64,000 nucleotides of DNA from Bacteroidaceae bacterium. GTDB lineage: Bacteria > Bacteroidota > Bacteroidia > Bacteroidales > Bacteroidaceae. Below the pieces are notes generated by a model that did not search any database, was not told the DNA's origin, and saw nothing but the letters and a program-made list of their open reading frames with translations. A program made the position numbers and the translations under genes. The stretch covers positions 1 through 64,000 of the forward strand of contig JAGBPB010000058.1 in assembly GCA_017633615.1 (NCBI GenBank), in the 5' to 3' direction. Positions 27,511 through 50,655 of the stretch are shown piece by piece. The first letter of the stretch is position 1; every line of letters begins with the position of its first letter.

Positions 27511-27514
27511 ATTG

Positions 27515-27589
<75 letters not shown>

Positions 27590-27700: not shown

Positions 27701-28429
27701 ATGAAATACGCTTTGGTAACCGGTGGCTCAAGAGGCTTGGGGCGTGCAGTCTGCCTGAGGTTGGCAGAACAGGGATACCCTGTGCTTATAAACTTCAAGT
27801 CAAATGAAGAAGCTGCCCTTGAGACCAAGAAACTGGTGGAGGACGTGGGCGGTCAGGCTGAACTGCTGCCGTTTGATGTTTCCAATCAGGATGAGGTGGA
27901 AACTGCTGTTGACAAGTGGCAGGATGCGCACAAGGAGGATTATATAGCAGTTCTTGTGAACAATGCCGGAATACGTCGTGATAACCTTATGGTTTTCATG
28001 CAGGATGATGATTGGAACAGTGTTCTTAAAACCAATCTGAACAGTTTCTTCTATCTGACACGTCGTCTGCTCAAGGATATGCTGTCAAAGCGTTGGGGCA
28101 GGATAGTGAATATGGCATCACTTTCAGGCATTAAGGGATTGGCCGGACAGGTAAACTATTCAGCAGCCAAAGCCGCACTGATAGGTGCCACCAAGGCATT
28201 GGCACAGGAGGTCGCAGCCCGCAAGGTTACAGTCAATGCCGTGGCACCCGGTTTCATTGCCACTGATATGACCAAAGAACTTCCTGAGGATGAACTTAAG
28301 AAAATGATTCCTGTGGGGCGTTTTGGCCGTCCCGATGAGGTGGCTGCCACCGTGGGATTCCTGGTATCTGAAGAGGCTTCATACATTACGGGTGAGGTTA
28401 TCTCAGTTAATGGAGGTCTTTATACTTGA
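27701..28429 (+). CDS. 3-ketoacyl-ACP reductase of the polyene operon (FabG/ApeQ-like)
   Basis: The protein has 242 residues from ATG 27701; an upstream extension in frame has no better start. It is a short-chain dehydrogenase that reduces 3-ketoacyl-ACP with NADPH. The cofactor motif is TGGSRGLG near residue 8, NNAG is near residue 86, and the catalytic Ser-Tyr-Lys is seen in MASLSG and YSAAKAAL. The C-terminal PGFIATDM is typical of FabG. It is the first gene of the 25-gene operon and the only ketoreductase in it, so it should act in each elongation cycle of the polyene. Confidence 0.92.
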   Translation: MKYALVTGGSRGLGRAVCLRLAEQGYPVLINFKSNEEAALETKKLVEDVGGQAELLPFDVSNQDEVETAVDKWQDAHKEDYIAVLVNNAGIRRDNLMVFMQDDDWNSVLKTNLNSFFYLTRRLLKDMLSKRWGRIVNMASLSGIKGLAGQVNYSAAKAALIGATKALAQEVAARKVTVNAVAPGFIATDMTKELPEDELKKMIPVGRFGRPDEVAATVGFLVSEEASYITGEVISVNGGLYT

Positions 28430-28468
28430 ATTTAATACATTAACAATCAATTATAAATTTTATTTGAA

Positions 28469-29011
28469 ATGAAAAAGTTCCTGTTTTTCTCATTGTTTGC
28501 TGCATTGTTCATTACATCTAATGCGCAGAATACGGTTGTAAACGGTGTGCGTGTACCAGGTGGTTATCAGGGGCACATAGAGTATTCAAACCTTTTTTAT
28601 TATGACGGAGGTACAGCTATGGAGGTCTCCACAACTCACGGTTTCTTCTATACGAGTAATATGTATGTAGGCCTTGGCATAGGTTTTCACGTATCACCTA
28701 AGGATGTTTTTGTTCCGGTGTACGCAGCTGCAAAATATGTTTTTAACCCTGTAGCCAAGAGTTCACCAACGCTCCAGTTCAGGATGGGTTCATTCTTCAA
28801 TGAGGGGGCAAAACCGTATGGTGACCTGTCATTCGGATTGAGGTTTGCGTCAGACCGTGATTTTGCATTCTCCATTCAGGCATGCGGATCATTCTATGCT
28901 CCGTTTGATCATGCTACGGGAGAATATGATAATGTTAAACAGACATGGGTTGATACTACAGAGCGTGTCAATCTGTCAAGCATTGGAATAAGGCTTGGCA
29001 TAGAATGGTAA
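28469..29011 (+). CDS. Outer-membrane barrel-like protein inside the polyene operon
   Basis: The protein has 180 residues with a signal peptide ending SNAQ near residue 20. The mature part is strand-rich (GYQGHIEYSNLFYY, YVGLGIGFHVSP, KPYGDLSFGLRF) and ends ...LSSIGIRLGIEW, an aromatic terminal strand consistent with outer-membrane insertion. The family is not recognised. Its position as second gene, between the ketoreductase and the first ketosynthase, suggests it helps receive or hold the product in the outer membrane. This is inference. Confidence 0.6.
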   Translation: MKKFLFFSLFAALFITSNAQNTVVNGVRVPGGYQGHIEYSNLFYYDGGTAMEVSTTHGFFYTSNMYVGLGIGFHVSPKDVFVPVYAAAKYVFNPVAKSSPTLQFRMGSFFNEGAKPYGDLSFGLRFASDRDFAFSIQACGSFYAPFDHATGEYDNVKQTWVDTTERVNLSSIGIRLGIEW

Positions 29012-29030
29012 TTACCGTTATTTCAAACAT

Positions 29031-30251
29031 ATGGGTAGAGTTGTTATAACAGGAATGGGAATATGGGGGTGCCTTGGTCAGAATCTTGATCAAGTGCGAG
29101 ATTCCCTCTTTGCCGGAAAGTCCGGAATAGGCATTGAGCCGGCCCGCAAGGAATACGGCTATCGTTCTGCATTGACCGGAATAGTTCCAAAACCGGTGCT
29201 CAAAGGTGTGCTTGACCGCCGTACGCGTGCCGGTATGAGCGAGGAGGCTGAATATGCCTATATGGCATCGGCCGAGGCATTCCGCGGGGCAGGTGTTGAT
29301 GACGATTATCTGCTCAATAATGAGGTGGGCGTCATTTTTGGCAATGATTCCAGCGCACAGCCGGTCATAGAGACAGCCAGGATAATGAGTGAGTACCGCG
29401 ACTCTGCCATGTGCGGTTCAGGACTGATATTCCAGTCCATGAACTCAACGGTAAACATGAACATGAGTACCATTTTCCATCTGCGTGGTATAAACTTTAC
29501 CGTGAGCGCGGCCTGTGCAAGCGGATCACATGCCATAGGTCTGGGTTTCATGATGATTCAGCAGGGGTTGCAGGAAATGGTTCTTTGCGGCGGCGCCCAG
29601 GAGACAAACCATATGTCAATGGCATCATTTGATGCTCTGTCTGCTTTCTCTATACGTCATGATGAGCCCCAGCGTGCTTCACGTCCGTTTGACCGTGACC
29701 GTGACGGCCTGGTGCCCAGCGGCGGTGCTGCAGCCGTGGTGCTTGAGGATTACGACCATGCAGTGAAGCGTGGCGCTCGCATACTGGCTGAGGTTCTTGG
29801 CTACGGATTCTCATCAAATGGCACGGGTGGCATATCACAACCCAATTCTGATGCATCATTCCTGGCAATGACCCGCGCTCTTGACCATGCAGGGATGCAG
29901 CCGGATGATATAGATTACATAAATGCTCACGCCACATCCACTCCTCAGGGCGATGCCTATGAGGCGATTGCTCTGGGCCGTCTGTTTGAGGGCCGCAAGG
30001 CATGGATAAGCTCCACCAAGTCAATGACAGGGCATGAGTGCTGGATGGCCGGAGCAAGTGAGATAGTCTATTCCACTCTGATGCTTGAAAACGGCTTTGT
30101 GGCTCCCAATATAAACTTTGAGAACCCTGATGAGTATTCAGCCAAACTCAAGATTGCGGCAGAGACAAAGCAGACTGAGATTAAGACTGTCCTCTCCAAT
30201 TCATTCGGATTCGGAGGAACCAACAGCGCACTTGTAATAAAGAAGATCTGA
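29031..30251 (+). CDS. Beta-ketoacyl-ACP synthase (FabF-like), first of three complete KSs
   Basis: The protein has 406 residues, full KAS-II length. The complete Cys-His-His triad is present: Cys162 in AACASGSHAIG, His300 in INAHATSTP and His335 in KSMTGHE. It should condense malonyl-ACP with an acyl chain. In the GHECWMAGASE segment Cys-Trp replaces the usual small residues after the second His, which may shape the pocket. It is co-directional, 19 bases after the barrel-like gene and two bases before the methyltransferase gene. Confidence 0.93.
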   Translation: MGRVVITGMGIWGCLGQNLDQVRDSLFAGKSGIGIEPARKEYGYRSALTGIVPKPVLKGVLDRRTRAGMSEEAEYAYMASAEAFRGAGVDDDYLLNNEVGVIFGNDSSAQPVIETARIMSEYRDSAMCGSGLIFQSMNSTVNMNMSTIFHLRGINFTVSAACASGSHAIGLGFMMIQQGLQEMVLCGGAQETNHMSMASFDALSAFSIRHDEPQRASRPFDRDRDGLVPSGGAAAVVLEDYDHAVKRGARILAEVLGYGFSSNGTGGISQPNSDASFLAMTRALDHAGMQPDDIDYINAHATSTPQGDAYEAIALGRLFEGRKAWISSTKSMTGHECWMAGASEIVYSTLMLENGFVAPNINFENPDEYSAKLKIAAETKQTEIKTVLSNSFGFGGTNSALVIKKI

Positions 30252-30253
30252 TT

Positions 30254-31354
30254 ATGAATCTGTCACCAGCCTTGAAGGAGGCTTACACCAAGGAACATCT
30301 GAGCGCCCGTGACGCACAGCGTCTTGCTGAGTTCATCGCTTGGGGCCCCATAGTTTTTCAGGCATCGCGCCTGATGATAAAATTCGGAATACTTGACCTT
30401 TTGCGTGACAATATTGACGGACTTACACAGCAGGAGATTGCAGATAAGACCAAACTGTCACTTTATGCGGTTAAGGTTCTGACAGAGGCATCGCTCTCAA
30501 TAGGGACTGTTCTGCTGGATCCTGATACTGACCGTTTCAGCCTGTCCAAGACCGGATGGTTCCTGCTTACAGACCCTGCCACTCGCGTTAATATTGACTT
30601 TAACCATGATGTCAATTATGAGGGCTGGTTCAAGCTTGAGGAGTCTCTCAAGGAGGGGCGTCCTGCAGGGTTGGAGCATTTTGGCAGTTGGCCAACCGTA
30701 TATGAGGGTCTATCACAGTTACCAGAACAGGTACAGAAGAGCTGGTTCGGTTTTGATCATTTCTACTCTGACCACTCATTTGATGAGGCTCTTAAGATTG
30801 TATTTGACGGAGGTAAGACGGAGTCTCTGGTTGATGTGGGCGGCAATACCGGCCGTTGGGCATTGCGCTGTGTTGATTACAGTGACAAGGTAAAGGTTAC
30901 CATAATGGACCTGCCTCAGCAGCTTGAGATGATGCGTAAACAGACCGCCGGAAAGAGGGGTGCTGACCGCATCGAGGGATTCGGCATAAACCTGCTGGAT
31001 CGTGCCCAGAAGTTCCCTCAGGGCCGTCATTTTGATGCCATATGGATGAGCCAGTTCCTGGATTGTTTCTCAGAGGAAGAGATCCTGAGCATACTGACAC
31101 GTGCCACAGCCTCTATGGATAAGGATACGCATCTTTATATCATGGAGACATTCTGGGACCGTCAGCGTTTTGAGCCGGGCGCATTGTGCCTGACCATGAC
31201 AAGCCTCTATTTTACTGCCATTGCCAACGGCAACAGCAAGATGTATCACTCTGAATGCATGGAGCGTCTTGTGGAGCAGGCCGGCATGAAGGTGGATAGG
31301 ATCCATGACGGACTGGGACAGGGACACAGTATTATGGTTTGTTCTTTAAAATAG
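30254..31354 (+). CDS. SAM-dependent methyltransferase (O-methyltransferase fold)
   Basis: The protein has 366 residues. The N-terminal ~100 residues form a winged-helix dimerisation domain (IVFQASRLMIKFGILDLL, LSLYAVKVLTEASL) as in plant- and polyketide-type O-methyltransferases. The SAM-binding glycine motif LVDVGGNTGRWAL is near residue 190, with IMDLPQQLE and IWMSQFLDCFSEEE following. Aryl-polyene and flexirubin clusters carry a methyltransferase for the aromatic head group, and the same role is likely here. Whether it methylates O or C cannot be told. Confidence 0.85.
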   Translation: MNLSPALKEAYTKEHLSARDAQRLAEFIAWGPIVFQASRLMIKFGILDLLRDNIDGLTQQEIADKTKLSLYAVKVLTEASLSIGTVLLDPDTDRFSLSKTGWFLLTDPATRVNIDFNHDVNYEGWFKLEESLKEGRPAGLEHFGSWPTVYEGLSQLPEQVQKSWFGFDHFYSDHSFDEALKIVFDGGKTESLVDVGGNTGRWALRCVDYSDKVKVTIMDLPQQLEMMRKQTAGKRGADRIEGFGINLLDRAQKFPQGRHFDAIWMSQFLDCFSEEEILSILTRATASMDKDTHLYIMETFWDRQRFEPGALCLTMTSLYFTAIANGNSKMYHSECMERLVEQAGMKVDRIHDGLGQGHSIMVCSLK

Positions 31355-31390
31355 TGATTATCAAACAAGTAAAATTATAAAATTCAACAA

Positions 31391-31633
31391 ATGGAAAGAA
31401 GTGAAATTGAAGCCAAGGTCAGGAACTTTATGATTGAAGACCTTGAGATTGATGAAGAGAAGATTAATCCCGATGCACATCTTATGAAGGATTTAGGCAT
31501 AGACAGCCTGGATTTCATTGATATTGTGGTTATAGTTGAGAAGACCTTCGGAGTTAAGATCAAGAGTGAGGAGATGGCTGGCGTGGATACCTTCAGCAAG
31601 TTCTGTGACTATATAGAAAGTAAAGTTGGTTAA
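31391..31633 (+). CDS. Acyl carrier protein 1 of the polyene operon
   Basis: The protein has 80 residues, standard ACP size. The phosphopantetheine-attachment serine is Ser39 in DLGIDSLDF. Acidic helices match the ACP fold. It is one of two carrier proteins in the operon; E. coli aryl-polyene systems also use two (ApeE and ApeF). Its last bases overlap the start region of the acyltransferase gene. Confidence 0.93.
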   Translation: MERSEIEAKVRNFMIEDLEIDEEKINPDAHLMKDLGIDSLDFIDIVVIVEKTFGVKIKSEEMAGVDTFSKFCDYIESKVG

Positions 31634-32522
31634 AAGAACGGACAAACCTGTTGAGTGGAAGGGTAAGACAGACGGTCTGCCGTGGATGATCCGCTCACTT
31701 GTAGTTGTGATGAAGGTATTGGACCGACGGGCCATCTATCTGGTAATGGCGCTGGTTGTCCCCTTCTATATGATTTTCAATCACAAGGGTTACAAGTCAA
31801 TATACAGGTTTTTCCGTGACAGGTTCAGTTACGGGCCTTTGAAATCATTCTTTAAAGTCTATGCCAACCATTTCCGTTTCGGTCAGGTGATTGTGGACCG
31901 CTACGCTGCATATGCCGGTAAAAAGTTCAAGTTTGCCTTTGAAGGCAATGACATGTTTCTGGCTATGCTTGATGAGCCGGGCGGTTTTGTCCAGCTCAGT
32001 TCACACATAGGGAACTATGAGATGGTAGGGTACAGTCTTACATCAACCTCCAAACGCATAAACGGACTCTTTTATGGCGGTGAGACTGAGGTGATGATGA
32101 ATTTCAGACGCAAGATACTGAGCATGCACAATGTGGGGCTTATAGAGGTGGACGGCAGTATGTCACACATATTCCAGATGAATGCGGCGCTTGACCGTGG
32201 CGAGATTGTGAGTATGACGGGTGACCGTATGCTTGGCTCAGCCAAGTCTTTACGCTGTTCATTCATGGGTGCCGATGCCAATTTCCCCATGGGACCGTTT
32301 GCACTTGCAGTGCAGAAGGAGGTGCCTATAATGGCCGTTTTCTGCATGCGTGACAAGTGGGGCGTCTATAAGGTCTATGTCCGCAAGATAATACCAGCAC
32401 CGGGCCTGGCAGCAAGGGCATCAATGAAGGATATGGCCCAGAAGTTTGCGGCAGAGTTGGAGACAATGGTGCGCCTTTATCCTACACAGTGGTTTAACTT
32501 TTATGATTTCTGGAGTGCCTGA
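31626..32522 (+). CDS. LpxL/HtrB-like lysophospholipid acyltransferase
   Basis: The protein has up to 298 residues from a TTG at 31626 that overlaps the ACP stop; the first ATG is at 31686, so the start is uncertain. LPLAT features: an N-terminal hydrophobic segment (VMALVVPFYMIF-like), GGFVQLSSHIGNYEM with the catalytic His, GDRMLGSAKS, and FPMGPFALAVQKEVPIM. LpxL-type enzymes transfer acyl groups from ACP to lipids at the inner membrane. Here it likely helps attach the polyene acyl chain, or a fatty acid, to the lipid part of the product. Confidence 0.85.
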   Translation: MVKRTDKPVEWKGKTDGLPWMIRSLVVVMKVLDRRAIYLVMALVVPFYMIFNHKGYKSIYRFFRDRFSYGPLKSFFKVYANHFRFGQVIVDRYAAYAGKKFKFAFEGNDMFLAMLDEPGGFVQLSSHIGNYEMVGYSLTSTSKRINGLFYGGETEVMMNFRRKILSMHNVGLIEVDGSMSHIFQMNAALDRGEIVSMTGDRMLGSAKSLRCSFMGADANFPMGPFALAVQKEVPIMAVFCMRDKWGVYKVYVRKIIPAPGLAARASMKDMAQKFAAELETMVRLYPTQWFNFYDFWSA

Positions 32523-32523
32523 T

Positions 32524-32961
32524 ATGGATGAGTTCAGCCGATATGATATTCTGGAACTGCTGCCGCAGCGCAGGCCGTTTGTCATGGTTGACAGCCTGCT
32601 TTACTGTGACACAATCATAACCAGGACACAGCTGGAGGTAAGGGAGGATAACATCTTCAATGACGGAGGCCGTCTGTCAACAGCAGGAATGTGTGAGAAT
32701 ATTGCACAGACCTGCGCCGCCCGTATAGGATATCTCAGTCTTGCGTCGGGGCAACCGGTCAGACTGGGTTTTATAGGCGCCATAAGCAACATGCAGGTTT
32801 ACAGGACTCCGTTGACAGGTGAGACTGTGGTGACAGAGATAAAGGTATTGCAGGAGGTGTTCAATATTACATTGGTGCACGCTGTGATGAAATGCGGAGA
32901 AGAGATGATAGCTGAGACAGACCTCAAGATTGCACTGGGTGATGATGAGGCTCAAAATTGA
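32524..32961 (+). CDS. Hot-dog 3-hydroxyacyl-ACP dehydratase (ApeP-like)
   Basis: The protein has 145 residues. The ATG at 32524 follows the acyltransferase stop by one base; a longer in-frame reading would lie inside that gene. The N-terminal LLPQRRPFVMVDSLL and central ENIAQTCAAR are hallmarks of the FabA/FabZ-like dehydratase subgroup found in aryl-polyene clusters. It is one of two dehydratases here, the other being at 38610. The pair is expected to introduce the repeated double bonds. Confidence 0.82.
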   Translation: MDEFSRYDILELLPQRRPFVMVDSLLYCDTIITRTQLEVREDNIFNDGGRLSTAGMCENIAQTCAARIGYLSLASGQPVRLGFIGAISNMQVYRTPLTGETVVTEIKVLQEVFNITLVHAVMKCGEEMIAETDLKIALGDDEAQN

Positions 32962-32968
32962 GAATGCT

Positions 32969-33385
32969 ATGAAGGAACTGAAAGAGACAATACCGTTCAG
33001 GGTCAGGTTCAGTGAGGTTGACTCAATGAACATAGTATGGCACGGTTCATACCCGCTCTATTTTGAGGATGCCCGTGAGGCATTCGGCCGTAAATACGGC
33101 TTGGGGTATTATGACATATTTGACAACGGATATTATGCGCCTCTTGTTGAACTCACGTTCAAGTACAAGAAGCCTATTACATACGGCATGAAACCGGAGA
33201 TAACGATCATTTACCGTTATACTGATTCGGCCAAGATTGTGTTTGATTACGAGATAACGGACTCCGTAAACGGTGATTTGCTGGCTGAAGGTCATTCGGT
33301 CCAGGTCTTTATGGATCGCAACTACCAGTTGGTTTGGGCCAATCCGGAGTTCTATGAGGAGTGGAAAAAGAGATGGCAAGATTGA
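32969..33385 (+). CDS. Acyl thioesterase, 4-hydroxybenzoyl-CoA type (ApeK-like)
   Basis: The protein has 138 residues from ATG 32969, just past the dehydratase stop. It is a hot-dog thioesterase with RVRFSEVDSMNIVWHGSY near the start (the Asp-x-x-x-x-x-x-His-Gly motif of the 4-HBT family) and LYFEDAREAFG in the central helix. Thioesterases of this kind are in most aryl-polyene clusters and probably edit or release acyl-ACP. The 3' end overlaps the next gene by 13 bases. Confidence 0.87.
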   Translation: MKELKETIPFRVRFSEVDSMNIVWHGSYPLYFEDAREAFGRKYGLGYYDIFDNGYYAPLVELTFKYKKPITYGMKPEITIIYRYTDSAKIVFDYEITDSVNGDLLAEGHSVQVFMDRNYQLVWANPEFYEEWKKRWQD

Positions 33386-34521
33386 TACAGTGTATTGCTG
33401 ACAACGTGGTTTCACCGCTTGGACTTACATCAGCGGATAATTACGCCGGTGTCAAGGCAGGCAGGAGCGGGCTTGCACGATATGAGGAGATGGGTAATGT
33501 ATGCTCCCCGTTCATGCTGTCCCGTATAGACCGTGATGTCATAGACAGGCTCTGTAAGGATCTTGGCATACCTGAAGGCTATACCTTCTTTGAGAAGCTG
33601 CTTTTATGCAGCAGCGTTCAGGCTGTAAGGCAGTCAGGTATTGACGCATCATCTGAAAGGGTTCTGTTTATCATATCCACCACCAAGGGTAATGTGGCTC
33701 TGCTGGATTCACGTATCACGAGCTTTCCGCGTGAAAGAGTGCTGCTTGGTGAATCAGCCCGTTTGGTGGCACGCTACTTTGGCAATCCTAACACTCCCAT
33801 AGTGGTATGCAATGCCTGCATATCGGGCGTATGTGCCCAGATAGAGGCTATGCGTGCTCTGCGCAGCGGTCGTTATGATTACGCTGTAGTGATAGGTGCC
33901 GATGAACAGTCACCGTTCATAATATCGGGATTTCTTTCATTCAAGGCGCTTACCGATACTCCGTGCCGTCCGTTTGACAAGGACCGCACCGGACTTAATC
34001 TTGGTGAATGTGCGGCTACGGTTGTACTTAAAGCCGTTGATGACAGTGTGACTGATGGATGGGTGCTTGAGTGCGGAGCCATAAGGAATGACTCCAACCA
34101 TATTTCCGGACCGTCCAGAACGGGCGAGGGCAGTTATCTGGCACTAATGGAGGTTTTGAAGGAATGCGGCCGTGAGGGTCTGGCATTCCTGAACGTACAC
34201 GGCACAGCCACTGCTTATAATGATGAGATGGAGTCAATAGCCATTTACCGCGCGGGACTGATTGATGTTCCGGTTACAGGGCTCAAAGGCTATTACGGAC
34301 ACACAATGGGTGCCGCAGGCATAATGGAGAGCATCCTCTCCATGTATGCTGTACAGGATGGTACGGTGCTTGCCACACGCGGATACACTGAGCAGGGTGT
34401 TACATATCCGGTAAGTGTCAGCCCTGAGAACAGGCCGGCCCAGGGAAACAGCTTTATTAAACTGCTGTCCGGATTCGGCGGCTGCAATGCTGCGCTGGCA
34501 TACAGATATTACAAGAGCTAA
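33373..34521 (+). CDS. Beta-ketoacyl-ACP synthase, second complete KS
   Basis: The protein has 382 residues from the ATG at 33373; a GTG four codons earlier is possible. The triad is complete: Cys149 in CNACISGVCA, His276 in NVHGTAT and His310 in GYYGHTMGAAG. It is slightly shorter than FabF and divergent from the other KSs at its N-terminus. The start lies within the thioesterase gene's end, implying coupling. It is followed by a short KS-like partner, so the two may form a complex. Confidence 0.9.
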   Translation: MARLIQCIADNVVSPLGLTSADNYAGVKAGRSGLARYEEMGNVCSPFMLSRIDRDVIDRLCKDLGIPEGYTFFEKLLLCSSVQAVRQSGIDASSERVLFIISTTKGNVALLDSRITSFPRERVLLGESARLVARYFGNPNTPIVVCNACISGVCAQIEAMRALRSGRYDYAVVIGADEQSPFIISGFLSFKALTDTPCRPFDKDRTGLNLGECAATVVLKAVDDSVTDGWVLECGAIRNDSNHISGPSRTGEGSYLALMEVLKECGREGLAFLNVHGTATAYNDEMESIAIYRAGLIDVPVTGLKGYYGHTMGAAGIMESILSMYAVQDGTVLATRGYTEQGVTYPVSVSPENRPAQGNSFIKLLSGFGGCNAALAYRYYKS

Positions 34522-34526
34522 GGGTT

Positions 34527-35162
34527 ATGGAGCAGAGAACCAGACTTAAATACACGGTTATCACTGACAAGGCAGCTCAGGTTAACGGACGCCCGCTTGA
34601 ACATGAGCAGACGGGTTCTGCCATGCTCTCTGAACTGTATCGTGCTCATGTGGCGGACTGGCCCAAGTTCTTCAAGATGGATACCCTTAGCAAGGTGGGA
34701 TTCCTGGCATCAGAACTGTTGCTTAAGGAGTGTGGTATAAAACGGTTGGAAGGCGAAGAGTTTACATCGGAACGGGCAGTGGTGTTATTCGGCACAACGG
34801 CTTCACTTTGTGCCGACCGGAATTATCAGGAGACCATACAGGACAAGGATAATTATTATCCCAGCCCGGCCCTGTTTGTATATACTCTGCCCAACATCGT
34901 AACGGGTGAGATAGCCATACGTAACCACTATCGCGGAGAGACATCATTCTATGTCCTGGACGGATATGATGCAGCAGCTATGGCTTTCCATATACAGTGT
35001 GCATTCCAGGACAACGTGACGGAAAGTGTGCTGGCCGGATGGGTGGACAGCGGCTCCAATGATGATTTCAGGTGTTTCTTTACCCTGGTGAACAGGTGTG
35101 ATGCACAGGACTTGTCAAAGTTGGAAAAAGAGATAAGAGAAATAATGGATAACTTAAAATAA
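34527..35162 (+). CDS. Truncated KS-like protein without catalytic cysteine
   Basis: The protein has 211 residues, about half a ketosynthase. It resembles the N-terminal half of the thiolase fold: VVLFGTTASLCADRN, then YYPSPALFVYTLPNI, as in KS chains, then GETSFYVLDGYDAAA at the place of the nucleophile elbow, with no Cys. No His motifs follow. It sits between a full KS gene and an ACP gene. I infer a non-catalytic partner or chain-length factor. Similar short KS-like genes accompany Bacteroidetes polyene clusters, as far as I recall. Confidence 0.65.
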   Translation: MEQRTRLKYTVITDKAAQVNGRPLEHEQTGSAMLSELYRAHVADWPKFFKMDTLSKVGFLASELLLKECGIKRLEGEEFTSERAVVLFGTTASLCADRNYQETIQDKDNYYPSPALFVYTLPNIVTGEIAIRNHYRGETSFYVLDGYDAAAMAFHIQCAFQDNVTESVLAGWVDSGSNDDFRCFFTLVNRCDAQDLSKLEKEIREIMDNLK

Positions 35163-35171
35163 TGACTATTT

Positions 35172-35429
35172 ATGGAAGAGATGATTCTTAAACTGAAACA
35201 GGAGATTATTGAAGTCCTTAATCTTGAGGATGTAAAACCTGAGGATATTGACAATGATGCTCCTCTGTTCGGCGAAGGTCTGGGACTGGATTCAATTGAC
35301 GCTCTTGAACTGATTGTGCTCATGGAGAAGAACTACGGCATCAAGCTGCAGGATCCCGCCAAGGGCAAGGAGATTTTCAAGTCCATCAACGTGATGGCTG
35401 ATTATATTCAGAAAAACCGCACAAGATAA
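35172..35429 (+). CDS. Acyl carrier protein 2 of the polyene operon
   Basis: The protein has 85 residues. The attachment site is Ser41 in GLGLDSIDALEL, with the usual three acidic helices. It ends on the first base of the next KS gene's ATG, so expression is tightly coupled. It probably carries the growing polyene chain with one of the KS pairs. Which KS uses which ACP is unknown. Confidence 0.93.
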   Translation: MEEMILKLKQEIIEVLNLEDVKPEDIDNDAPLFGEGLGLDSIDALELIVLMEKNYGIKLQDPAKGKEIFKSINVMADYIQKNRTR

Positions 35430-38000: not shown

Positions 38001-38002
38001 CG

Positions 38003-39005: not shown

Positions 39006-39008
39006 GCC

Positions 39009-42681: not shown

Positions 42682-44186
42682 TGGATAGCAGTTGTGTCAT
42701 AATAGGAGCCGGTCTTGGAGGCCTTTCATGCGGTGCTGTATTGGCACGTCACGGGTTCAGGGTTACACTTCTGGAACAGCAGCGTCAGGCAGGAGGCTGT
42801 CTGCAGACATTCATGCGTGACGGGCTTAAATATGAGACCGGAATGCATTTCATAGGCAGTGCCGGACGTGGTGAGTTGCTTGATTCATTGCTTCGTTATC
42901 TGGGAATAAAAGATGGCCTTGAACTGCATGAACTGGACCACAACGGTTATGAGACAGTGACGTATAAAGGTCAGGATTTCCGTTTCAGGAACGGCAAGGA
43001 GGCCTTTGTAGAAGGATTGACAGAGTTCTTTCCGCACCAGAGGGATAATCTGGCACGATATATAGAGACTGTCTACAGAGCATCGGCCGCATCATCGGTG
43101 GAGAGTTTCAATCCCACGCGTGTGATGGACTCAAATGATACGGTTTGGCATACCCGCAGTGTGGATAGCGTGATAGATGAGCTGGTTGATGATGCAGACC
43201 TGCGTCAGATCCTGGCCGGCAACCAGCCGTTATATGCGGGAGTTAAAGGACATACACCGTTTGCACTGCATGCCTTCATAACATCATTCTATAACCGCAG
43301 CGCATGGCGTATAGCAGGTGGCAGTGATGCCATTGCCAAACTCCTGATAAAGCGGATAACCGATGCCGGTGGCTCTGTATTGACTGGTTGCAAGGCTCTG
43401 GAGATAGTGTGTGATGAGACTCAGGCAACGGGTGTAAGGTACATTAAAGGAGTTGATGAGGGTGTAATCAATGCAGACTGGGTTATATCTACCATACATC
43501 CGTCACTGACGGTGGGGATGGTACATTCTCCATTACTCAGACCGGCTTTCAGAAAAAGAATTCAGGATTTGCCTGATACGATTGGCGTTTTTGAATTATA
43601 TTTGAAGTTTAAAAACAACTCTGTACCTTACATGAACTTCAACCGTTTCTGCTACAGAGACGGAACTATTTGGGGATGTGACAGTTATACGGATGCCGAC
43701 TGGCCGCGTGGCTTTTTGTACATGCACCAGTATCCGCAAAAGGACAGCCGTTATGCCGATGCCGGAGTCATTCTGGCATATTTGCGTAATGATGAACTGG
43801 CACAGTGGAGCGGCACACAGACAGGCCGCCGCGGTGATGACTACAGGGAGTTCAAGGAGCGTAAGGCAGAAAGGCTTATAGCCGCTGCAGCAGAGCATTA
43901 TCCTGAACTAAGGGACAGAGTGGAGCGTTGGTGGACATCGACACCCCTTACGTATCGTGATTATACCGGTGCAGTGGGAGGCGGGTTGTACGGTGTCGCA
44001 AAAGATGTTGAACTGGGATTGTCCGGCAGGGTGCCTTACCGTACTCGTGTAAGAAACCTGTTTATGGCCGGTCAGTCTGTTAATTCACATGGCATCCTGG
44101 GTGTCCTGGTGGGCAGCATGGTGGTGTGTGACAATATTTTAGGAAACGGAACCCTGTATGAAGGAATCATACGGGCAACCGATTGA
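42681..44186 (+). CDS. Phytoene-desaturase-like FAD-dependent oxidoreductase 1
   Basis: The protein has 501 residues from the ATG at 42681, which shares a base with the upstream stop. The N-terminal dinucleotide motif is IIGAGLGGLSCGAVLARHG, and the C-terminal FAD motif is NLFMAGQSVNSHGILGV. Length and layout match the CrtI/RetSat (phytoene desaturase or retinol saturase) superfamily. Such enzymes act on conjugated polyenes, as desaturase, isomerase or saturase. It is followed by a paralogue. Here it may adjust the polyene chain or its ring end. Confidence 0.85.
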   Translation: MDSSCVIIGAGLGGLSCGAVLARHGFRVTLLEQQRQAGGCLQTFMRDGLKYETGMHFIGSAGRGELLDSLLRYLGIKDGLELHELDHNGYETVTYKGQDFRFRNGKEAFVEGLTEFFPHQRDNLARYIETVYRASAASSVESFNPTRVMDSNDTVWHTRSVDSVIDELVDDADLRQILAGNQPLYAGVKGHTPFALHAFITSFYNRSAWRIAGGSDAIAKLLIKRITDAGGSVLTGCKALEIVCDETQATGVRYIKGVDEGVINADWVISTIHPSLTVGMVHSPLLRPAFRKRIQDLPDTIGVFELYLKFKNNSVPYMNFNRFCYRDGTIWGCDSYTDADWPRGFLYMHQYPQKDSRYADAGVILAYLRNDELAQWSGTQTGRRGDDYREFKERKAERLIAAAAEHYPELRDRVERWWTSTPLTYRDYTGAVGGGLYGVAKDVELGLSGRVPYRTRVRNLFMAGQSVNSHGILGVLVGSMVVCDNILGNGTLYEGIIRATD

Positions 44187-44192
44187 GCAAGT

Positions 44193-45680
44193 ATGGATAT
44201 TATAGTGATAGGTGCCGGTTTGGGTGGCCTTTTTTGTGGAGCGCTGCTTTCCAAGGAGGGACACAGAGTGACTGTGCTTGAGAAAAACCCGCTTATAGGT
44301 GGCGGACTGCAGACCTTTGTCCGTAAAGGAGAGAGGTATGAGACCGGTATGCATGTGGCGGGCGGATTCCACGATAAAGGTTCATTATACCGTATATGCA
44401 AATACCTGGGCATATGGGACAGGATAGATATAGCATCATCTGATCTTGTATCAAGTGTAACATATCTCAAGGAAGGACTCACATTTAATATACCTGCCGG
44501 CAGGGAAGCGTTCGTTGAGTACCTGTCATCAATTTATCCTGATGAGAGTGACGGCATAAGGAATTATACCGATGCTCTTTTCCGCCTGTCAGAGGAGGAG
44601 AAACTCTTCTACATGAAAAGTGGCGGAACCGGTTATCCTGAGCATTCTGATGAGTTCATGATGCCTGCTGACCGCTTTATCGCCAAATATATAAGGAATG
44701 AGCAGCTGCAGTCACTTCTGGCTTTTGTGAACTCTCTGTACGCAGGTGTGGCAGGGCATTCACCTACATATCTGCATGCCATGATATCAGTGATGTTCAT
44801 TGATACGCCGTGCAGGTTTGCAGGAGGCAGCAGCCAGCTGGCCGATGCACTGGCATGGGTTATAGAGCAGGGCGGCGGAGCTGTACTGACACGCCGCAAT
44901 GTGGAGCGTATTCTGGTTGAGGACCGTATGATAAAGTGTGTCATTGACTCTGAAGGCCGTGAATACAGGGCTGACTCATATATATCGGATATTCATCCCT
45001 GTATGCTTCTGGATAAGATTGAAGGCAAGGCATTCACTCCCGGTTATAGGGAACGTCTCAGAACTATTCCTGATACGGTATCGGCTTTCAAGGTATTTCT
45101 CAAACTCAAACCCGGAACGGTTCCTTTTGTGGAACATCCTGTATCTGTGCTTGATTCCATGTCAAATGCCTGGAAACTCTGTGAGTATGATGTGCAGGGC
45201 TGGCCTCATGCAGTGGGTTGTTTCATGACACCGTCTGCTGACGGCAAGTGGGCTACCCATATATCGGCATTGTCACTTATGAGTTGGGATGAGGTGAGCT
45301 GTTGGGCAGATACATGTACTGGGCATCGTACACCTGAATATGAGGAGTGGAAACGTTCCCGCACCGAGAAGGTGCTTGATATGGTTGAGAAGGTATTTCC
45401 TGATATCAGGGAGTGCATGGATGACTGTTTTGCCGCATCACCGCTCACGTTCCGTGATTGGCTGGGCAGCAGGAACGGTTCCATATACGGCTATTTCAAG
45501 GACAGCGAGAACCTGATTCTTTCCCAGTTGCCCATACGGACAAAAGTGGGTAACCTCTTGCTTACAGGACAGAACGTAAATATGCACGGCATAGGCGGCG
45601 TGCCTATGACGGCAATCGAGACAGCTGAGGTTTTGACAGGTAATGATGTGATAGTCAGTAAGATTAATAAAACAACATAA
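44193..45680 (+). CDS. Phytoene-desaturase-like FAD-dependent oxidoreductase 2
   Basis: The protein has 495 residues, a tandem paralogue of the previous gene, six bases downstream. The FAD motifs are VIGAGLGGLFCGALLSKEG at the start and NLLLTGQNVNMHGIGGV at the end. Shared internal blocks include ETGMH near residue 50 and YAGVxGHxP near residue 190. The two are clearly diverged, so they likely act on different positions or form a heteromer. The substrate is inferred to be the operon product. Confidence 0.85.
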   Translation: MDIIVIGAGLGGLFCGALLSKEGHRVTVLEKNPLIGGGLQTFVRKGERYETGMHVAGGFHDKGSLYRICKYLGIWDRIDIASSDLVSSVTYLKEGLTFNIPAGREAFVEYLSSIYPDESDGIRNYTDALFRLSEEEKLFYMKSGGTGYPEHSDEFMMPADRFIAKYIRNEQLQSLLAFVNSLYAGVAGHSPTYLHAMISVMFIDTPCRFAGGSSQLADALAWVIEQGGGAVLTRRNVERILVEDRMIKCVIDSEGREYRADSYISDIHPCMLLDKIEGKAFTPGYRERLRTIPDTVSAFKVFLKLKPGTVPFVEHPVSVLDSMSNAWKLCEYDVQGWPHAVGCFMTPSADGKWATHISALSLMSWDEVSCWADTCTGHRTPEYEEWKRSRTEKVLDMVEKVFPDIRECMDDCFAASPLTFRDWLGSRNGSIYGYFKDSENLILSQLPIRTKVGNLLLTGQNVNMHGIGGVPMTAIETAEVLTGNDVIVSKINKTT

Positions 45681-45687
45681 AGGGACT

Positions 45688-46983
45688 ATGAATTCTTTTA
45701 AACTGAAACTGATATATCCCAAGTGGCAGAAGCTGAGAGGACAGACCACCTTCAACCTGCCGCCTCACGGACCGGTGGCATTTGCAGCTACCCTGCCTGA
45801 GTGGGTTGATGTTTCATTCACGGATGAGAATGTTGAGCCGATAGATTTCAATGAGGAGTGTGACGGTGTGGCTCTCTCAATGATGCTCAGCACCCAGGTA
45901 AAACGCGGGTGGGAGATAGCTGAGGAGTATCACAAGCGCGGTAAACTGGTTATGGCGGGCGGTATATCAACTATGCTGCATGCTGAGGATACCGTGAATC
46001 ATGTGGATTGTGTGTTCCTGGGTGAATCAGAGGGCCGCATGGAAGAGGTTATGCAGGACTGGGTAAACGGCAAACTGCGTAAGTTCTACAACTATATGGG
46101 CAATATGCCTCCTATTGAATCAGTGGGTCCGTGCCGTCGTGATCTCTACAAGCGTGAGCTCTACAACCATAAGGGCGTACAGATGGTTGACCTGTTCCAT
46201 GCCAGCCGCGGATGCCGTTTCAGCTGCTATCCGTGCGCTGTGTCATATCTGGGAGGCCGTAAGTTCCGCCCGCGTCCCATTGACAAGGTTGTTGAGGATA
46301 TGGCTGCCATTGAGAACAACCGTCTGTTCATAGTGGATAATTCACTGGCCCAGAACAAGGAATGGGAAAAGGAGCTGTTCACAGCCATAGCTCCGCTCAA
46401 GAAGAAATGGATAAGCCATACCATAGAGGATGATCCTGAGGTTCTGGATCTGGCAGCCAAGGCAGGTGCCTGGTATGTGTATCAGGCGGTCTATGATACA
46501 TCGGATTACATCAAGGAGCGTGTTAAAAGATATCACGACTACGGCATAGGAGTAGAGGGTACAATCCTTCTGGGACTTGACAACCAGACGGAGGATGACA
46601 TAAAGCGTCTGATTGATTTCCTGGGTGAGATTGACCTTGACCTGGCAGAGTTTACGGTCATGACTCCGTTCCCGCATACCAAGGGATATGATGACCTGCT
46701 GCGTCAGGGCCGCATATTTGATTTTGACTGGAACCATTACAATGCCGGTCAGGTGGTGTTCCAGCCCAAGCATATGAGTCCGGAGCGCCTACAGGAACTC
46801 TATGACTATGCTTGGAAAAGTTTCTATGCCAGCGAGAGCCAGGAGCAGAAGATGTTCCGACTGTTCTGCAATGTTGCATTGCGTGAAATGGAAGAGGGGA
46901 CCTACCGTCCGCGTGACCGCCGTCTTGCCAACAAGTCATTCGGCCGTGATGTTGACAGAAGTATAAGAAATGTAAATATATGA
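45688..46983 (+). CDS. Radical SAM protein with B12-binding-like N-terminal domain
   Basis: The protein has 431 residues. The N-terminal ~140 residues have the Rossmann-like form of cobalamin-binding domains (VALSMMLSTQ, KLVMAGGISTML, VFLGESEG), although the classical Asp-x-His-x-x-Gly motif is not obvious. The 4Fe-4S/SAM site is Cys176, Cys180 and Cys183 in RGCRFSCYPCAV (C-x3-C-x2-C). The rest is a partial TIM barrel, including GTILLGLDNQTEDD. Class B radical SAM enzymes of this form methylate or rearrange unactivated carbons. It overlaps the next gene by four bases. Confidence 0.87.
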   Translation: MNSFKLKLIYPKWQKLRGQTTFNLPPHGPVAFAATLPEWVDVSFTDENVEPIDFNEECDGVALSMMLSTQVKRGWEIAEEYHKRGKLVMAGGISTMLHAEDTVNHVDCVFLGESEGRMEEVMQDWVNGKLRKFYNYMGNMPPIESVGPCRRDLYKRELYNHKGVQMVDLFHASRGCRFSCYPCAVSYLGGRKFRPRPIDKVVEDMAAIENNRLFIVDNSLAQNKEWEKELFTAIAPLKKKWISHTIEDDPEVLDLAAKAGAWYVYQAVYDTSDYIKERVKRYHDYGIGVEGTILLGLDNQTEDDIKRLIDFLGEIDLDLAEFTVMTPFPHTKGYDDLLRQGRIFDFDWNHYNAGQVVFQPKHMSPERLQELYDYAWKSFYASESQEQKMFRLFCNVALREMEEGTYRPRDRRLANKSFGRDVDRSIRNVNI

Positions 46984-47342
46984 AAGTATCACCTGATTAT
47001 TACGACGAGATATTCAGCTTTAAAGGCGAATGGGATATGCCATCGGCTTGCGGCCTCAAGATTCGCCAGTCGGAGGGCAAAACATACGTTATTGTAACAG
47101 AACTGTATCAGGATAATCCCGGTACTTCAGTGACATATGCCGGACAGAAGCTGGCTGATCAGATTTGTGAGGCAAAGGGTTTGAAACTCAGTGATATAGT
47201 CTATATAGAGTGCAATCCCAATACTAACTCCAAACTGTCTTTTTATGATGAGGAGTTCTTTCAGGTTAGTTTTGATGCAGACTTGCAACACCGTTACAGG
47301 CAGCTTGACAGGTCAGAGATAATGAAAATAACGGCAGAGTGA
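46980..47342 (+). CDS. Hypothetical 120-residue cytosolic protein
   Basis: The protein has 120 residues, no signal peptide and no recognised family. It is strand-rich and acidic (KTYVIVTELYQDNPGTSVT, IVYIECNPNTNSKLSF). Its start overlaps the radical SAM stop and its stop shares a base with the hydrolase start, so it is strongly coupled to both. It may be a partner or small accessory enzyme of the radical SAM protein. No function can be assigned from sequence. Confidence 0.6.
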   Translation: MKVSPDYYDEIFSFKGEWDMPSACGLKIRQSEGKTYVIVTELYQDNPGTSVTYAGQKLADQICEAKGLKLSDIVYIECNPNTNSKLSFYDEEFFQVSFDADLQHRYRQLDRSEIMKITAE

Positions 47343-48223
47343 TGCTCGGAAGGTTATTACTGCTTATTCCACTCATAGTTATTCCCGGCAAGAACAGTAT
47401 GAATCCCTGGGCTGAAGAAGATAAACGTGCTGAAGAGGTGGTATTCACACCTTATCTTGCCGATGGAGGAAATGATTCTCCTGCGGTCATTGTCTGCCCG
47501 GGCGGAAGCTACTGCTGGCTTGACGTGAAGGGTGAAGGTATTGAGGTGGCAGAGTGGTTGCAGAGTCAGGGGATATCGGCTTTCCTGCTGCAATACAGGA
47601 CAGCCGGATTCGGGGCCTATTTTACGCGTTACCGATATGTGTCACGCGGCAACAGGCATCCCGATATGATATGTGATTTGCAGAGAGCAATCCGATATGT
47701 CCGCGAGAACGCTGAAAGTTTGGGTATTAACCCGGATAAACTGGGTGTTCTGGGTTTCTCGGCAGGCGGGCATCTGGCATTGTGCTCAGCCTGTTTCAGT
47801 GCCACAGACTATACGGATCTGCCTGAAGGACCGGCCAAGGTGTCATTGAGACCGGCTTTTGTAGGTGCCATATATCCTGTGGTGACTCTAAGCGGTGAGT
47901 ATGCACATAAACGTTCGCGCCGCGGGTTGCTGGGTGAGTGGGGCAAGCACAACAGAAAACTCAGAGAGAATCTCTCTGTTGAGAAAAATATCCCAGCTGA
48001 TTGTCCGCCGGTGTTCATTGCAAACTGCAAGGATGATCCTGTTGTGGATTGGCACAACTCAGTTTTGCTTGATGAGGCTCTGACAGCGGCTGGAATTGAG
48101 CACACCTATATACAGTATGAGACCGGCCGTCATGGATTCGGAGTGAGCGAGGTGTACGGCAGCAAAGAGTCCAGAGAGTGGAAACTGAGGTTTAAGGAAT
48201 GGTTGAACGGCTTAAAAATCTAG
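47342..48223 (+). CDS. Alpha/beta hydrolase (acetyl-xylan-esterase-like)
   Basis: The protein has 293 residues from ATG 47342; a GTG one codon earlier is less likely. The N-terminus has a hydrophobic segment (LLLLIPLIVIPG) that may be a weak signal or anchor. The oxyanion region is VIVCPGGSYCW, the nucleophile elbow GFSAGGHLA, the acid CKDDPVVD and the catalytic His in GRHGFG. It belongs to the esterase/lipase group that includes carbohydrate esterases. In this operon it could instead release or edit an ester of the polyene lipid. Confidence 0.8.
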   Translation: MLGRLLLLIPLIVIPGKNSMNPWAEEDKRAEEVVFTPYLADGGNDSPAVIVCPGGSYCWLDVKGEGIEVAEWLQSQGISAFLLQYRTAGFGAYFTRYRYVSRGNRHPDMICDLQRAIRYVRENAESLGINPDKLGVLGFSAGGHLALCSACFSATDYTDLPEGPAKVSLRPAFVGAIYPVVTLSGEYAHKRSRRGLLGEWGKHNRKLRENLSVEKNIPADCPPVFIANCKDDPVVDWHNSVLLDEALTAAGIEHTYIQYETGRHGFGVSEVYGSKESREWKLRFKEWLNGLKI

Positions 48224-48226
48224 GTT

Positions 48227-49522
48227 ATGGTAAAGGATATAGAATTTGAAAGTCCTGAACGGATCAAGGAGTTTCAGGAGAAACTGCTCAAGAAACATCT
48301 GGTTTATCTGAGTGAGAACTCCCCATATTACAGGAGATTGTTTGACAGCTACGGTATAAGGATTGACAAGATAAGACATCTGGAGGATCTTGTAAGGATT
48401 CCGTTTACTGAGAAAAAGGACTTGCAGCTCTATAATGATGACTTTTGCTGTGTTCCACGCAAAAAGATAATCGACTACATAACCACATCAGGTACACTGG
48501 GTGATCCAGTCCTGTTCGGTTGCACGGAAAAAGACCTGCAGCGCCTTGCCTTCAATGAGAAGAAGTCATTTGAGTGCGCCGGCCTTACTGATGAGAGCGT
48601 ACTGCAGCTGATGACCACGCTTGACAAGCGTTTCATGGCCGGTATGGCCTATTTCCTGGGCCTCAGGGAGATGGGGGCAGGTGTAATTCGTGTAGGTAAC
48701 GGTATTCCTGAACTGCAGTGGGATACCATACGCCGTTTCCATCCTGATGCCATAATGTGCGTGCCGTCATTCATTCTCAAGCTGATAGATTATGCTGAGG
48801 CGCACGATATTGATTATCGCTCCAGCAGCATACGCCGTATAATTGGCATAGGTGAGGGACTGCGTGACCAGAAGTTCAATCTAAATCTGTTGGGCAGCCA
48901 GATTCATGAGAAATGGCCCCAGGTACAGCTGTTTGCAACATACTCATCGACAGAGATGGGAGCCACCTTCAGCGAGTGTGAGTACGGTATGGGCGGTCAC
49001 GTACATCCTGAACTCATCATCGTGGAGATTATAGGTGATGACGGTATGCCTGTGGCCGACGGTCAGCCGGGTGAGGTGGTGGTTACCACACTTGGAGTTG
49101 AGGGAATGCCTCTGCTCCGTTTCCGTACGGGTGATATAGCTTGCAAGCATGTGGAGCAGTGCCGTTGCGGCCGATGGTCTTACCGCCTGTCACCTCTGCT
49201 GGGACGCAAGAACAATATGATCAAGCTCAAGGGCACCACGCTCTATCCGCCAGCCATAAATGATGTGCTGGACAATACTGATTATGTTGATAATTACGTT
49301 GTTATAGTACGCAACAGCGATGCCGGAACAGATGATGTGCTGGTTAAGGTCGGGCTTAGACATGATCCTGGCTTTGATGCCGTAAAGGAACTCAAGGACC
49401 GTTTCCGCTCACGCATTCGTGTGGCCCCGGAGATTGAGATTTGCCCAGTTGATGAGATTCATGCAATCAACTATCCGCCCACAGGCCGCAAGCCGGTCAA
49501 GTTCATTGATGAAAGGAAATAA
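48227..49522 (+). CDS. Phenylacetate-CoA-ligase-like acyl-activating enzyme
   Basis: The protein has 431 residues, PaaK length. The AMP-binding loop is YITTSGTLGDPVLFG near residue 85. RFRTGDIA and KLKGTTLYPPAI mark the hinge and C-terminal domain, as in phenylacetate-CoA ligases. It should activate an aromatic or other carboxylic acid as an adenylate and pass it to CoA or ACP. In E. coli the related step uses ApeH to load 4-hydroxybenzoate. This is the only candidate starter-loading enzyme here. It starts three bases after the hydrolase gene. Confidence 0.87.
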   Translation: MVKDIEFESPERIKEFQEKLLKKHLVYLSENSPYYRRLFDSYGIRIDKIRHLEDLVRIPFTEKKDLQLYNDDFCCVPRKKIIDYITTSGTLGDPVLFGCTEKDLQRLAFNEKKSFECAGLTDESVLQLMTTLDKRFMAGMAYFLGLREMGAGVIRVGNGIPELQWDTIRRFHPDAIMCVPSFILKLIDYAEAHDIDYRSSSIRRIIGIGEGLRDQKFNLNLLGSQIHEKWPQVQLFATYSSTEMGATFSECEYGMGGHVHPELIIVEIIGDDGMPVADGQPGEVVVTTLGVEGMPLLRFRTGDIACKHVEQCRCGRWSYRLSPLLGRKNNMIKLKGTTLYPPAINDVLDNTDYVDNYVVIVRNSDAGTDDVLVKVGLRHDPGFDAVKELKDRFRSRIRVAPEIEICPVDEIHAINYPPTGRKPVKFIDERK

Positions 49523-50655
49523 TGACTATGGAGAGAGAGACCCGTTTTGATGATATCCGTCCGTATTGGGATGAGGAGATACCCGCCGCAATGCAGCGCA
49601 TAGTATCTGATCCGTATTTTCCGCCAGTGGCACAGTATGTCTATCCGGACCGTACTGTAGCTGAGGTAAAGGATATCATGCTCAATTGCCGTAATATCTA
49701 CGAGTTCCAGACTACGGTCATGAAACAGGTAAATGAGCAGGTGATAGAACGTACCACCGATGGTCTTACATATGGTGGCATAGAGCGTCTTGATCCTTCA
49801 AAACGATACCTTTTTGTAAGCAATCACAGGGATATAGTCCTTGACTCATGCCTGCTTATGTATATCCTGCATACCAATGGCCACAAGATTGGTGAGATTA
49901 CCTTTGGTTCCAATCTCATGAAAGGTCAGATGGTCATAGACATAGGCAAGAGCAACAAGATGTTCAAGGTGGAGCGTGGCGGTAATCCGCGTGAGCTTTA
50001 CATTACGTCGGTGCATCTTTCAGAATATATCCGGTATGCAATTACAGAGAAGCATGAGTCCGTATGGATAGCCCAGCGCAACGGCCGTACCAAGGATGGT
50101 ATTGACCGGACAGACCAGGGATTGATCAAGATGTTCGGCCTAAGCGGCGGAAAGGATCGCGTGCAGGCTCTTGCAGAACTTAACATTGTTCCCGTATCGG
50201 TTTCATATGAGTGGGAGTCATGTGACATTCTGAAAGCCCTTGAACTTTATGCATCACGTGACGGCAAGCCTTATGTAAAGAAACCGGGTGAGGACCTTAA
50301 CAGCATTCTTACCGGAATAACCCAGCCTAAGGGCAGGGTACACATTGAACTGTGCGAGCCTCTGACCGCTGCAGACTTGAGTGCTATCCCGTCAGATTAT
50401 GCCGATGCACAGTTCCGTCACAGTGTGGCGGATATAATGGATGAACGCATCTGCAAAGGCTACCGTCTGTATCCCAATGCCTATATAGCACATGATATCC
50501 GTTCAGGCAGCAACCGTTATGCAGACCGATACAATCAGGAACAGTACAACGCATTCAAGGCCCGCTTGGCAGATCTGGAAAAGTACGGTAGTGACCCTGC
50601 GTTAAAGGATATATTCCTTGGCATCTACGCCAATCCGATTGATAATAGTTATTGA
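49522..50655 (+). CDS. PlsC-like glycerol-phosphate/lipid acyltransferase
   Basis: The protein has 377 residues. The acyltransferase site is SNHRDIVLDS at residues ~100-109, an H-x5-D spacing rather than the usual H-x4-D. WIAQRNGRTKDG takes the place of FPEGTR. It is the third acyltransferase domain of the operon, after 31626 and the exporter fusion. The start overlaps the ligase stop. It may attach the activated acyl chain to a glycerol-type lipid. It is the last gene before a GH43 gene that follows 14 bases later. Confidence 0.8.
   Translation: MTMERETRFDDIRPYWDEEIPAAMQRIVSDPYFPPVAQYVYPDRTVAEVKDIMLNCRNIYEFQTTVMKQVNEQVIERTTDGLTYGGIERLDPSKRYLFVSNHRDIVLDSCLLMYILHTNGHKIGEITFGSNLMKGQMVIDIGKSNKMFKVERGGNPRELYITSVHLSEYIRYAITEKHESVWIAQRNGRTKDGIDRTDQGLIKMFGLSGGKDRVQALAELNIVPVSVSYEWESCDILKALELYASRDGKPYVKKPGEDLNSILTGITQPKGRVHIELCEPLTAADLSAIPSDYADAQFRHSVADIMDERICKGYRLYPNAYIAHDIRSGSNRYADRYNQEQYNAFKARLADLEKYGSDPALKDIFLGIYANPIDNSY

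Follow-up and report, generated by a model that had tools for sequence, protein, structure and literature searches.

The window analyzed here is a stretch of 64,000 nucleotides from a Bacteroidaceae bacterium (contig JAGBPB010000058.1 of assembly GCA_017633615.1), and at positions 27701..50655 it carries an operon with the gene content of a polyene pathway. All 25 genes of the operon were confirmed on the plus strand, and its 24 intergenic junctions, with the starts chosen in this analysis, ranged from -17 (overlap) to +39 bases, 11 of them overlapping, which bears out the tightly packed same-strand block described in an initial annotation made from the sequence alone. Gene families were assigned with the curated models of Pfam and NCBIfam and their cut-offs (Table 1). 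The core functions listed in that annotation agreed with the models: one ketoreductase, three ketosynthases (KS), two KS-like partners, two acyl carrier proteins (ACP), two dehydratase-like proteins, a thioesterase, a methyltransferase, a ligase, a GT2 glycosyltransferase, a LolA protein and an MMPL exporter. Beyond this inventory, the operon encodes an LpxL-like acyltransferase, an EamA/ArnE-like membrane protein, a PlsC domain fused to the exporter and, as its last product, a third acyltransferase-like protein.

The description of the cluster as aryl-polyene/flexirubin-like was right as to its general kind, with the flexirubin side the better supported. Four proteins exceeded the cut-offs of curated flexirubin models, namely FlxB (410 bits, cut-off 340), FlxJ (605, cut-off 560), LolA2 (150, cut-off 125) and FlxY (683, cut-off 520), and for this reason the product is very probably a flexirubin-type polyene. 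LolA2/LolB2 are reported to be encoded in flexirubin loci (PMC11885536) and a flexirubin-like cluster of a gut Bacteroides has been described (PMC12940132), indicating that the general kind of cluster is already known.

Table 1. Genes of the operon and the adjoining GH43 gene, with window coordinates and the basis of each assignment (FAD, flavin adenine dinucleotide; SAM, S-adenosylmethionine; SDR, short-chain dehydrogenase/reductase)
Feature	Coordinates	Strand	Basis
FlxB-type ketoreductase (SDR)	27701..28429	+	NF053542 410.4 bits, cut-off 340
Small protein, apparent signal peptide, barrel-like by appearance only	28469..29011	+	no Pfam/NCBIfam match
KS1, FabB-like ketosynthase	29031..30251	+	PF00109/PF02801; Cys-His-His triad by eye
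FlxJ-family methyltransferase	30254..31354	+	NF053543 605.2 bits, cut-off 560
Acyl carrier protein 1	31391..31633	+	PF00550
LpxL-like acyltransferase	31626..32522	+	PF03279 59.7 bits
Dehydratase-like hotdog protein 1	32524..32961	+	longer open reading frame weakly FabZ-like, 28.7 bits against cut-off 113; start refined
Hotdog thioesterase	32969..33385	+	PF13279
KS2 ketosynthase	33373..34521	+	PF00109/PF02801; Cys-His-His triad by eye
KS-like partner 1 (short)	34527..35162	+	no Pfam match; name from initial annotation and synteny
Acyl carrier protein 2	35172..35429	+	NF006617 88.3 bits, cut-off 70
KS3 ketosynthase	35429..36640	+	PF00109/PF02801; Cys-His-His triad by eye
KS-like partner 2, chain-length-factor-like	36637..37659	+	PF13723 33.3 bits; active-site residues lost by eye
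EamA/ArnE-like membrane protein	37644..38000	+	PF00892 35.4 bits; NF011625 44.1 bits, under cut-off 92
LolA2, flexirubin-type periplasmic carrier	38003..38626	+	NF053544 149.7 bits, cut-off 125
Dehydratase-like hotdog protein 2	38610..39005	+	PF07977 27.6 bits, cut-off 23
GT2 glycosyltransferase	39009..39749	+	PF00535; polyprenyl-phosphate-type by best NCBIfam (AglJ, PpgS), below cut-off
MMPL exporter fused to PlsC-type acyltransferase	39742..42681	+	PF03176 21.7 bits, PF01553 79 bits
CrtI-like FAD oxidoreductase A	42681..44186	+	PF01593; best NCBIfam CrtD, 106 of 550 bits
CrtI-like FAD oxidoreductase B	44193..45680	+	PF01593
Radical SAM enzyme, N-terminal B12-binding-like domain	45688..46983	+	PF04055 33.5 bits, PF02310 25.4 bits
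120-residue protein, function not assigned, radical SAM partner	46980..47342	+	homologue survey, co-occurrence
Alpha/beta hydrolase, BD-FAE-like esterase, apparent signal peptide by eye	47342..48223	+	PF20434 79.8 bits
FlxY, flexirubin acyl-CoA ligase (PaaK-type)	48227..49522	+	NF053551 682.9 bits, cut-off 520
PlsC-like acyltransferase	49522..50655	+	PF01553 22.5 bits, just below cut-off 23
GH43 glycosidase, possible operon member in window group only	50670..52085	+	PF04616 290 bits

The list of functions is also close to that of the ape cluster of Escherichia coli (PMC8253772), which shares a KS with its chain-length partner, two dehydratases, two ACPs, a methyltransferase, acyltransferases, a LolA-like protein and an RND/MMPL exporter, as would be expected if the operon encoded an aryl polyene pathway of the E. 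coli type, starting from 4-hydroxybenzoate. On the other hand, the E. coli starter ligase, the 4-hydroxybenzoate-activating synthetase ApeH, appears to be of another family than the sole ligase of the operon, which passes the FlxY model; the ketoreductase, methyltransferase and LolA protein are also flexirubin types, as judged by curated model scores. An E. coli-type pathway is thus unlikely. The claim that the tail of the operon brings functions foreign to the E. coli pathway held for the apeA to apeP part of the 18-gene list, within which there is no CrtI-like or radical SAM gene (PMC8253772).

The flexirubin clusters of Chitinophaga pinensis and Flavobacterium johnsoniae, like the operon, combine several KSs, dehydratases, a thioesterase, LolA, a glycosyltransferase and an exporter in one block (PMC3992019). 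The operon differs from such clusters in that FlxA, DarB, DarH and the C45 acyltransferase are absent around it (window 20001-60000), and in that it adds a radical SAM gene, the 120-residue protein, a second CrtI-like gene and an extra acyltransferase. These differences were drawn through five flexirubin-type comparison loci without the radical SAM gene (G212, G236, G128, G248 and G027, in the last of which FlxJ has few further polyene genes around it). The same loci showed that only some of the tail genes deserve to be called unusual. The ligase is FlxY itself, and the CrtI-like and esterase-like genes were each met in a flexirubin-type context, the former at 33-34% in G236 and G248 and at 25% in G212, the latter at 35% near the G236 locus. 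The radical SAM gene, the 120-residue protein and the last acyltransferase, on the other hand, were not found in the five loci, the acyltransferase within the stretches retrieved. Genome-wide searches of these five genomes, whose FlxJ matches score 394-633 bits, found neither the radical SAM gene nor the 120-residue protein in any of them. An empty radical SAM search without a positive control shows nothing by itself; the same query gave a match at E <= 1e-60 in 19/198 genomes of the order, one of these only 36% identical. The arylpolyene cluster pBGC-12 of Bacteroides xylanisolvens, reported to be syntenic with the Chitinophaga flexirubin cluster, is possibly of the same kind as the operon, and the available part of its description names no radical SAM gene (PMC12940132). 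The literature search yielded no paper joining flexirubin with radical SAM, and the variant features of the operon were not met in it.

The gene order of the operon was conserved in loci retrieved from other genomes of related gut Bacteroidales, indicating that the tail genes belong to the operon and that the arrangement exceeds chance. The comparison used 80 loci, the best 80 of 339 by radical SAM similarity and some of them cut by contig ends; in addition, the gene content of longer stretches from 25 genomes was read and tabulated. Searched by tblastn with the window proteins, the 80 loci matched the 120-residue protein in every case (80/80), the esterase and the MMPL protein in 74/80 each, GT2 in 71/80, FlxY in 67/80 and the last acyltransferase in 65/80. 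The small protein at 28469..29011 was matched in three of 25 other stretches (66% in G003, 37% in G009 and 36% in G008). Since the loci were picked by radical SAM similarity, high radical SAM identity among them is partly a result of selection, and the ratio of nonsynonymous to synonymous substitution (dN/dS) and the deeper genomes are the fairer measures.

In these deep lineages the radical SAM gene adjoined a C45 acyltransferase gene (G295, G303, G355, G407 and G412), followed a BtrH-like gene, an ACP gene and a gene which we take to be sulfotransferase-like (G352, G411 and G302), or lay one gene away from FlxA (G384). No polyene core surrounded it in G283, G396 and G384, nor any polyene gene in G283 and G396, within the stretch retrieved, as might be expected if the tail, from the CrtI pair to the last acyltransferase, were a separate pathway merely lying downstream. 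However, core and tail keep their common order in the gut genomes, FlxY sits inside the tail, and the neighbours of the radical SAM gene in deep lineages include C45, BtrH-like, ACP and FlxA genes; a separate pathway is very unlikely. The G352 locus (L193-L194) carries a module beside a flexirubin-type cluster, with helix-turn-helix (HTH)-like, BtrH-like, ACP, sulfotransferase-like, radical SAM and 120-residue protein genes followed by an ACP-like match and AcpS-like and FabD-like genes (HTH, sulfotransferase, AcpS and FabD named by eye).

The tail enzyme had been described as a B12-type radical SAM protein. Membership of the radical SAM superfamily was confirmed by PF04055 (cut-off 29.5 bits) and by a CX3CX2C motif whose cysteines (C176, C180 and C183) were invariant in 20/20 aligned rows, whereas the B12 part is unproven, PF02310 scoring 25.4 bits against a cut-off of 32.1. 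By sequence the enzyme lay near the B12-type families TIGR04013, HpnJ and BchE, all far under cut-off, and a fold search on a weak model (mean predicted local distance difference test score 62) ranked the diol dehydratase AprD4 first. AprD4 is not known to use B12. The B12-type neighbours and the AprD4 match make methylation and dehydration both candidate reactions, and any named reaction is doubtful at best. Measured between the window and four relatives, radical SAM dN/dS was 0.021-0.033, the lowest of the genes measured; some genes were missing in two of the four, and the proportion of differing synonymous sites (0.49-0.74) was near saturation. Of 28 genomes with a radical SAM match, 23 also encoded the 120-residue protein, as did none of five without such a match; of the five genomes with a radical SAM match that lacked it, one contig ends within the gene (G303) and another has only a 36% relative (G426). 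It has 1489 homologues, and none of the 120 listed carries a Pfam domain. The radical SAM protein of the window was 97% identical to that of the Bacteroidales metagenome-assembled genome (MAG) RUG12752; by their titles, many of the closest records are MAGs that come from ruminants, deer or horses.

The two CrtI-like proteins scored 87.9 and 67.9 bits with the CrtI phytoene desaturase model TIGR02734, below its cut-off of 238.1. Two CrtI-like genes were found in 22 of the 80 loci, one gene in 27, one fused protein (more than 850 residues with both halves matching) in 27, and none or a cut gene in 4. Fusions occur in L023, L026, L056 and L070 among others, and the four whose lengths were listed were of 989-999 residues in the order A then B. 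This natural fusion suggests that the two enzymes act together, and where both are present they probably work as one unit. We also considered whether the radical SAM and CrtI-like enzymes could convert the polyene to a fused-ring, ladderane-like lipid. In anammox bacteria, candidate ladderane clusters bring together fatty acid genes with radical SAM and CrtI-like genes; the ladderane-associated radical SAM model TIGR04072, however, matched at 39.8 bits against a cut-off of 360 and nothing here indicates cyclisation, so that such a product is highly improbable.

The tyrosine ammonia-lyase FlxA, which in C. pinensis makes 4-coumarate from tyrosine (PMC3992019), was found neither in window 20001-60000 nor in the genomes of 19/19 close relatives (L001-L014, L016, L018, L019, L022 and L034), a working group that sits in an open fork on the radical SAM tree and not on one supported branch. 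The query was a relative whose own score with the FlxA model, 805 bits, exceeds the cut-off of 700, and FlxA status covers 58 of the 80 genomes. A FlxA-like gene was present in 28 of the 58, all 28 also with FlxY at the cluster; FlxY was kept in 20 of the 30 FlxA-less genomes and not in the other 10, one of the 30 (G488) having only a 36% match. When mapped onto the radical SAM tree, rows that keep FlxY without FlxA required 3 changes (shuffled mean 16.6), as did the rows without both genes (shuffled mean 9.4), which points to few events, yet more than one. Flexirubins are aryl-polyene esters of a dialkylresorcinol, and DarB, which serves the dialkylresorcinol half, was likewise not found in window 20001-60000, and the 19 close relatives showed no match above 21 bits. 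It exceeded its cut-off (550) in none of the 58 genomes with a gut-type cluster, with scores of at most about 41 bits apart from G473 and G476; the positive controls G236 and G352 were both over cut-off, and strong DarB matches (52-58% identity) occurred in 7/18 genomes of the 198-genome draw. We are therefore confident that in the group of close relatives the polyene is not joined to dialkylresorcinol.

A rival reading is that the operon makes an ordinary flexirubin, the genes for FlxA and the dialkylresorcinol enzymes lying at other sites. The dar and flx genes do lie at separate sites in C. pinensis (PMC3992019), and the related gut genomes G473 (L029) and G476 (L037) have, besides a gut-type cluster, a DarB-like gene on another contig that falls a little short of the cut-off (531 and 509 bits), and so probably have DarB. 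In the 19 close relatives, however, the genome-wide searches returned neither gene, and the C45 acyltransferase and DarH are missing from window 20001-60000; an ordinary flexirubin is accordingly very improbable. G476 also lacks FlxA.

A genome-wide search found FlxY over cut-off in 25 of 35 genomes (all 19 close relatives, G476 and five FlxA-bearing genomes), the remaining ten, of Prevotella type or Caecibacteroides, giving weaker matches only. FlxY dN/dS between the window and the four relatives was 0.035-0.071, indicating that the retained FlxY is not decaying but under purifying selection where measured. The FlxY of the C. pinensis cluster has been characterised as a 4-coumarate-CoA ligase (PMC3992019). 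A change of starter supply in this variant is probable; that the starter comes from outside is a more tentative proposal, with a little less than an even chance in our estimation, and the aryl acid is perhaps derived from plant cell walls. A GH67 glucuronidase gene lies upstream of the operon (21550-23643). The operon esterase matches a family of feruloyl and acetyl-xylan esterases (PF20434), but it scored below the cut-offs for PaeX, AxeA1 and lp_1002 and is also present in relatives that have FlxA; because it passes no curated model and occurs with FlxA, the link to plant hydroxycinnamates is an inference. Both GH67 and GH43 genes flank the operon in G003 and G004, the two group members with an upstream stretch.

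Taken together, the operon probably directs the synthesis of a flexirubin-type aryl polyene anchored to a membrane lipid in place of dialkylresorcinol. All steps of the model were drawn from protein families and synteny. FlxY would activate a 4-hydroxycinnamic-type acid imported from outside, and the three KSs with their partners, FlxB and the two dehydratases would extend this starter on the ACPs to a conjugated polyene, the ring of which would be methylated by FlxJ. The CrtI-like pair, as one complex, may adjust the double bonds by isomerisation or desaturation, and the radical SAM enzyme with the 120-residue protein may carry out one further anaerobic modification, perhaps C-methylation or hydroxyl removal. 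The polyene would be attached to a lipid by the acyltransferases and GT2, exported by the MMPL protein and taken by LolA2 to the outer membrane, where it could scavenge oxidants. Judging from the genes, the most likely product would be a polyene lipid that is exported to the outer membrane. The operon is real and its kind, a flexirubin-type cluster, already known; the putative radical step and the probable change in starter supply set this variant apart.

Several observations weigh against this model. The absences were read from the window and its relatives, mostly MAGs. In 16 of the 19 close relatives there is one CrtI-like gene, B-like, instead of two, so that some members do without A. On the Muribaculaceae branch, both the esterase and the last acyltransferase are missing from five loci (L051, L058, L060, L063 and L079). 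The ten Prevotella-type or Caecibacteroides relatives (L061, L062, L064, L067, L069, L072, L073, L074, L078 and L080) keep the radical SAM gene without FlxA or an over-cut-off FlxY, which implies that not every member needs to start from a hydroxycinnamate; these loci may start from a different unit. Finally, FlxY is related to phenylacetate-CoA ligases, and the acid could therefore be another aryl acid, even one made intracellularly.

By genome mining, a flexirubin-like cluster of a gut Bacteroides is reported to be one of the gene clusters that persist in the human gut (PMC12940132), and no product was described for any of them in the literature searched. A wider reading, which we consider improbable, is that rumen-type Bacteroidales abandoned their own aryl starter and assemble an outer-membrane polyene lipid on hydroxycinnamic acids released from digested plant cell walls, with the radical SAM enzyme and its 120-residue partner making a modification that has no known counterpart among flexirubins or aryl polyenes. 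If true, the cluster would link the breakdown of fibre with protection of the membrane, and if the starter is dietary, pigment formation should depend on plant phenolics. The ligase kept without the lyase, the natural CrtI-CrtI fusion and the slowly evolving radical SAM enzyme with its orphan partner offer testable handles.

The GH43 gene begins 14 bases past the last operon gene on the same strand, and the same-strand run may extend into it. Within the window group, 13 of 20 loci had a GH43 gene after the operon, compared to none of the 60 others. The L079 record bears the title Clostridiales, yet its cluster, on a contig of 1.24 Mb, grouped with Muribaculaceae rows in the tree; it is probably a mislabelled MAG. 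On the minus strand of the window, a tRNA-Thr (CGT) gene at 27514-27587 lies directly upstream of the operon, and a C10-family peptidase domain with BspA-type leucine-rich repeats is encoded at 19029-20741.

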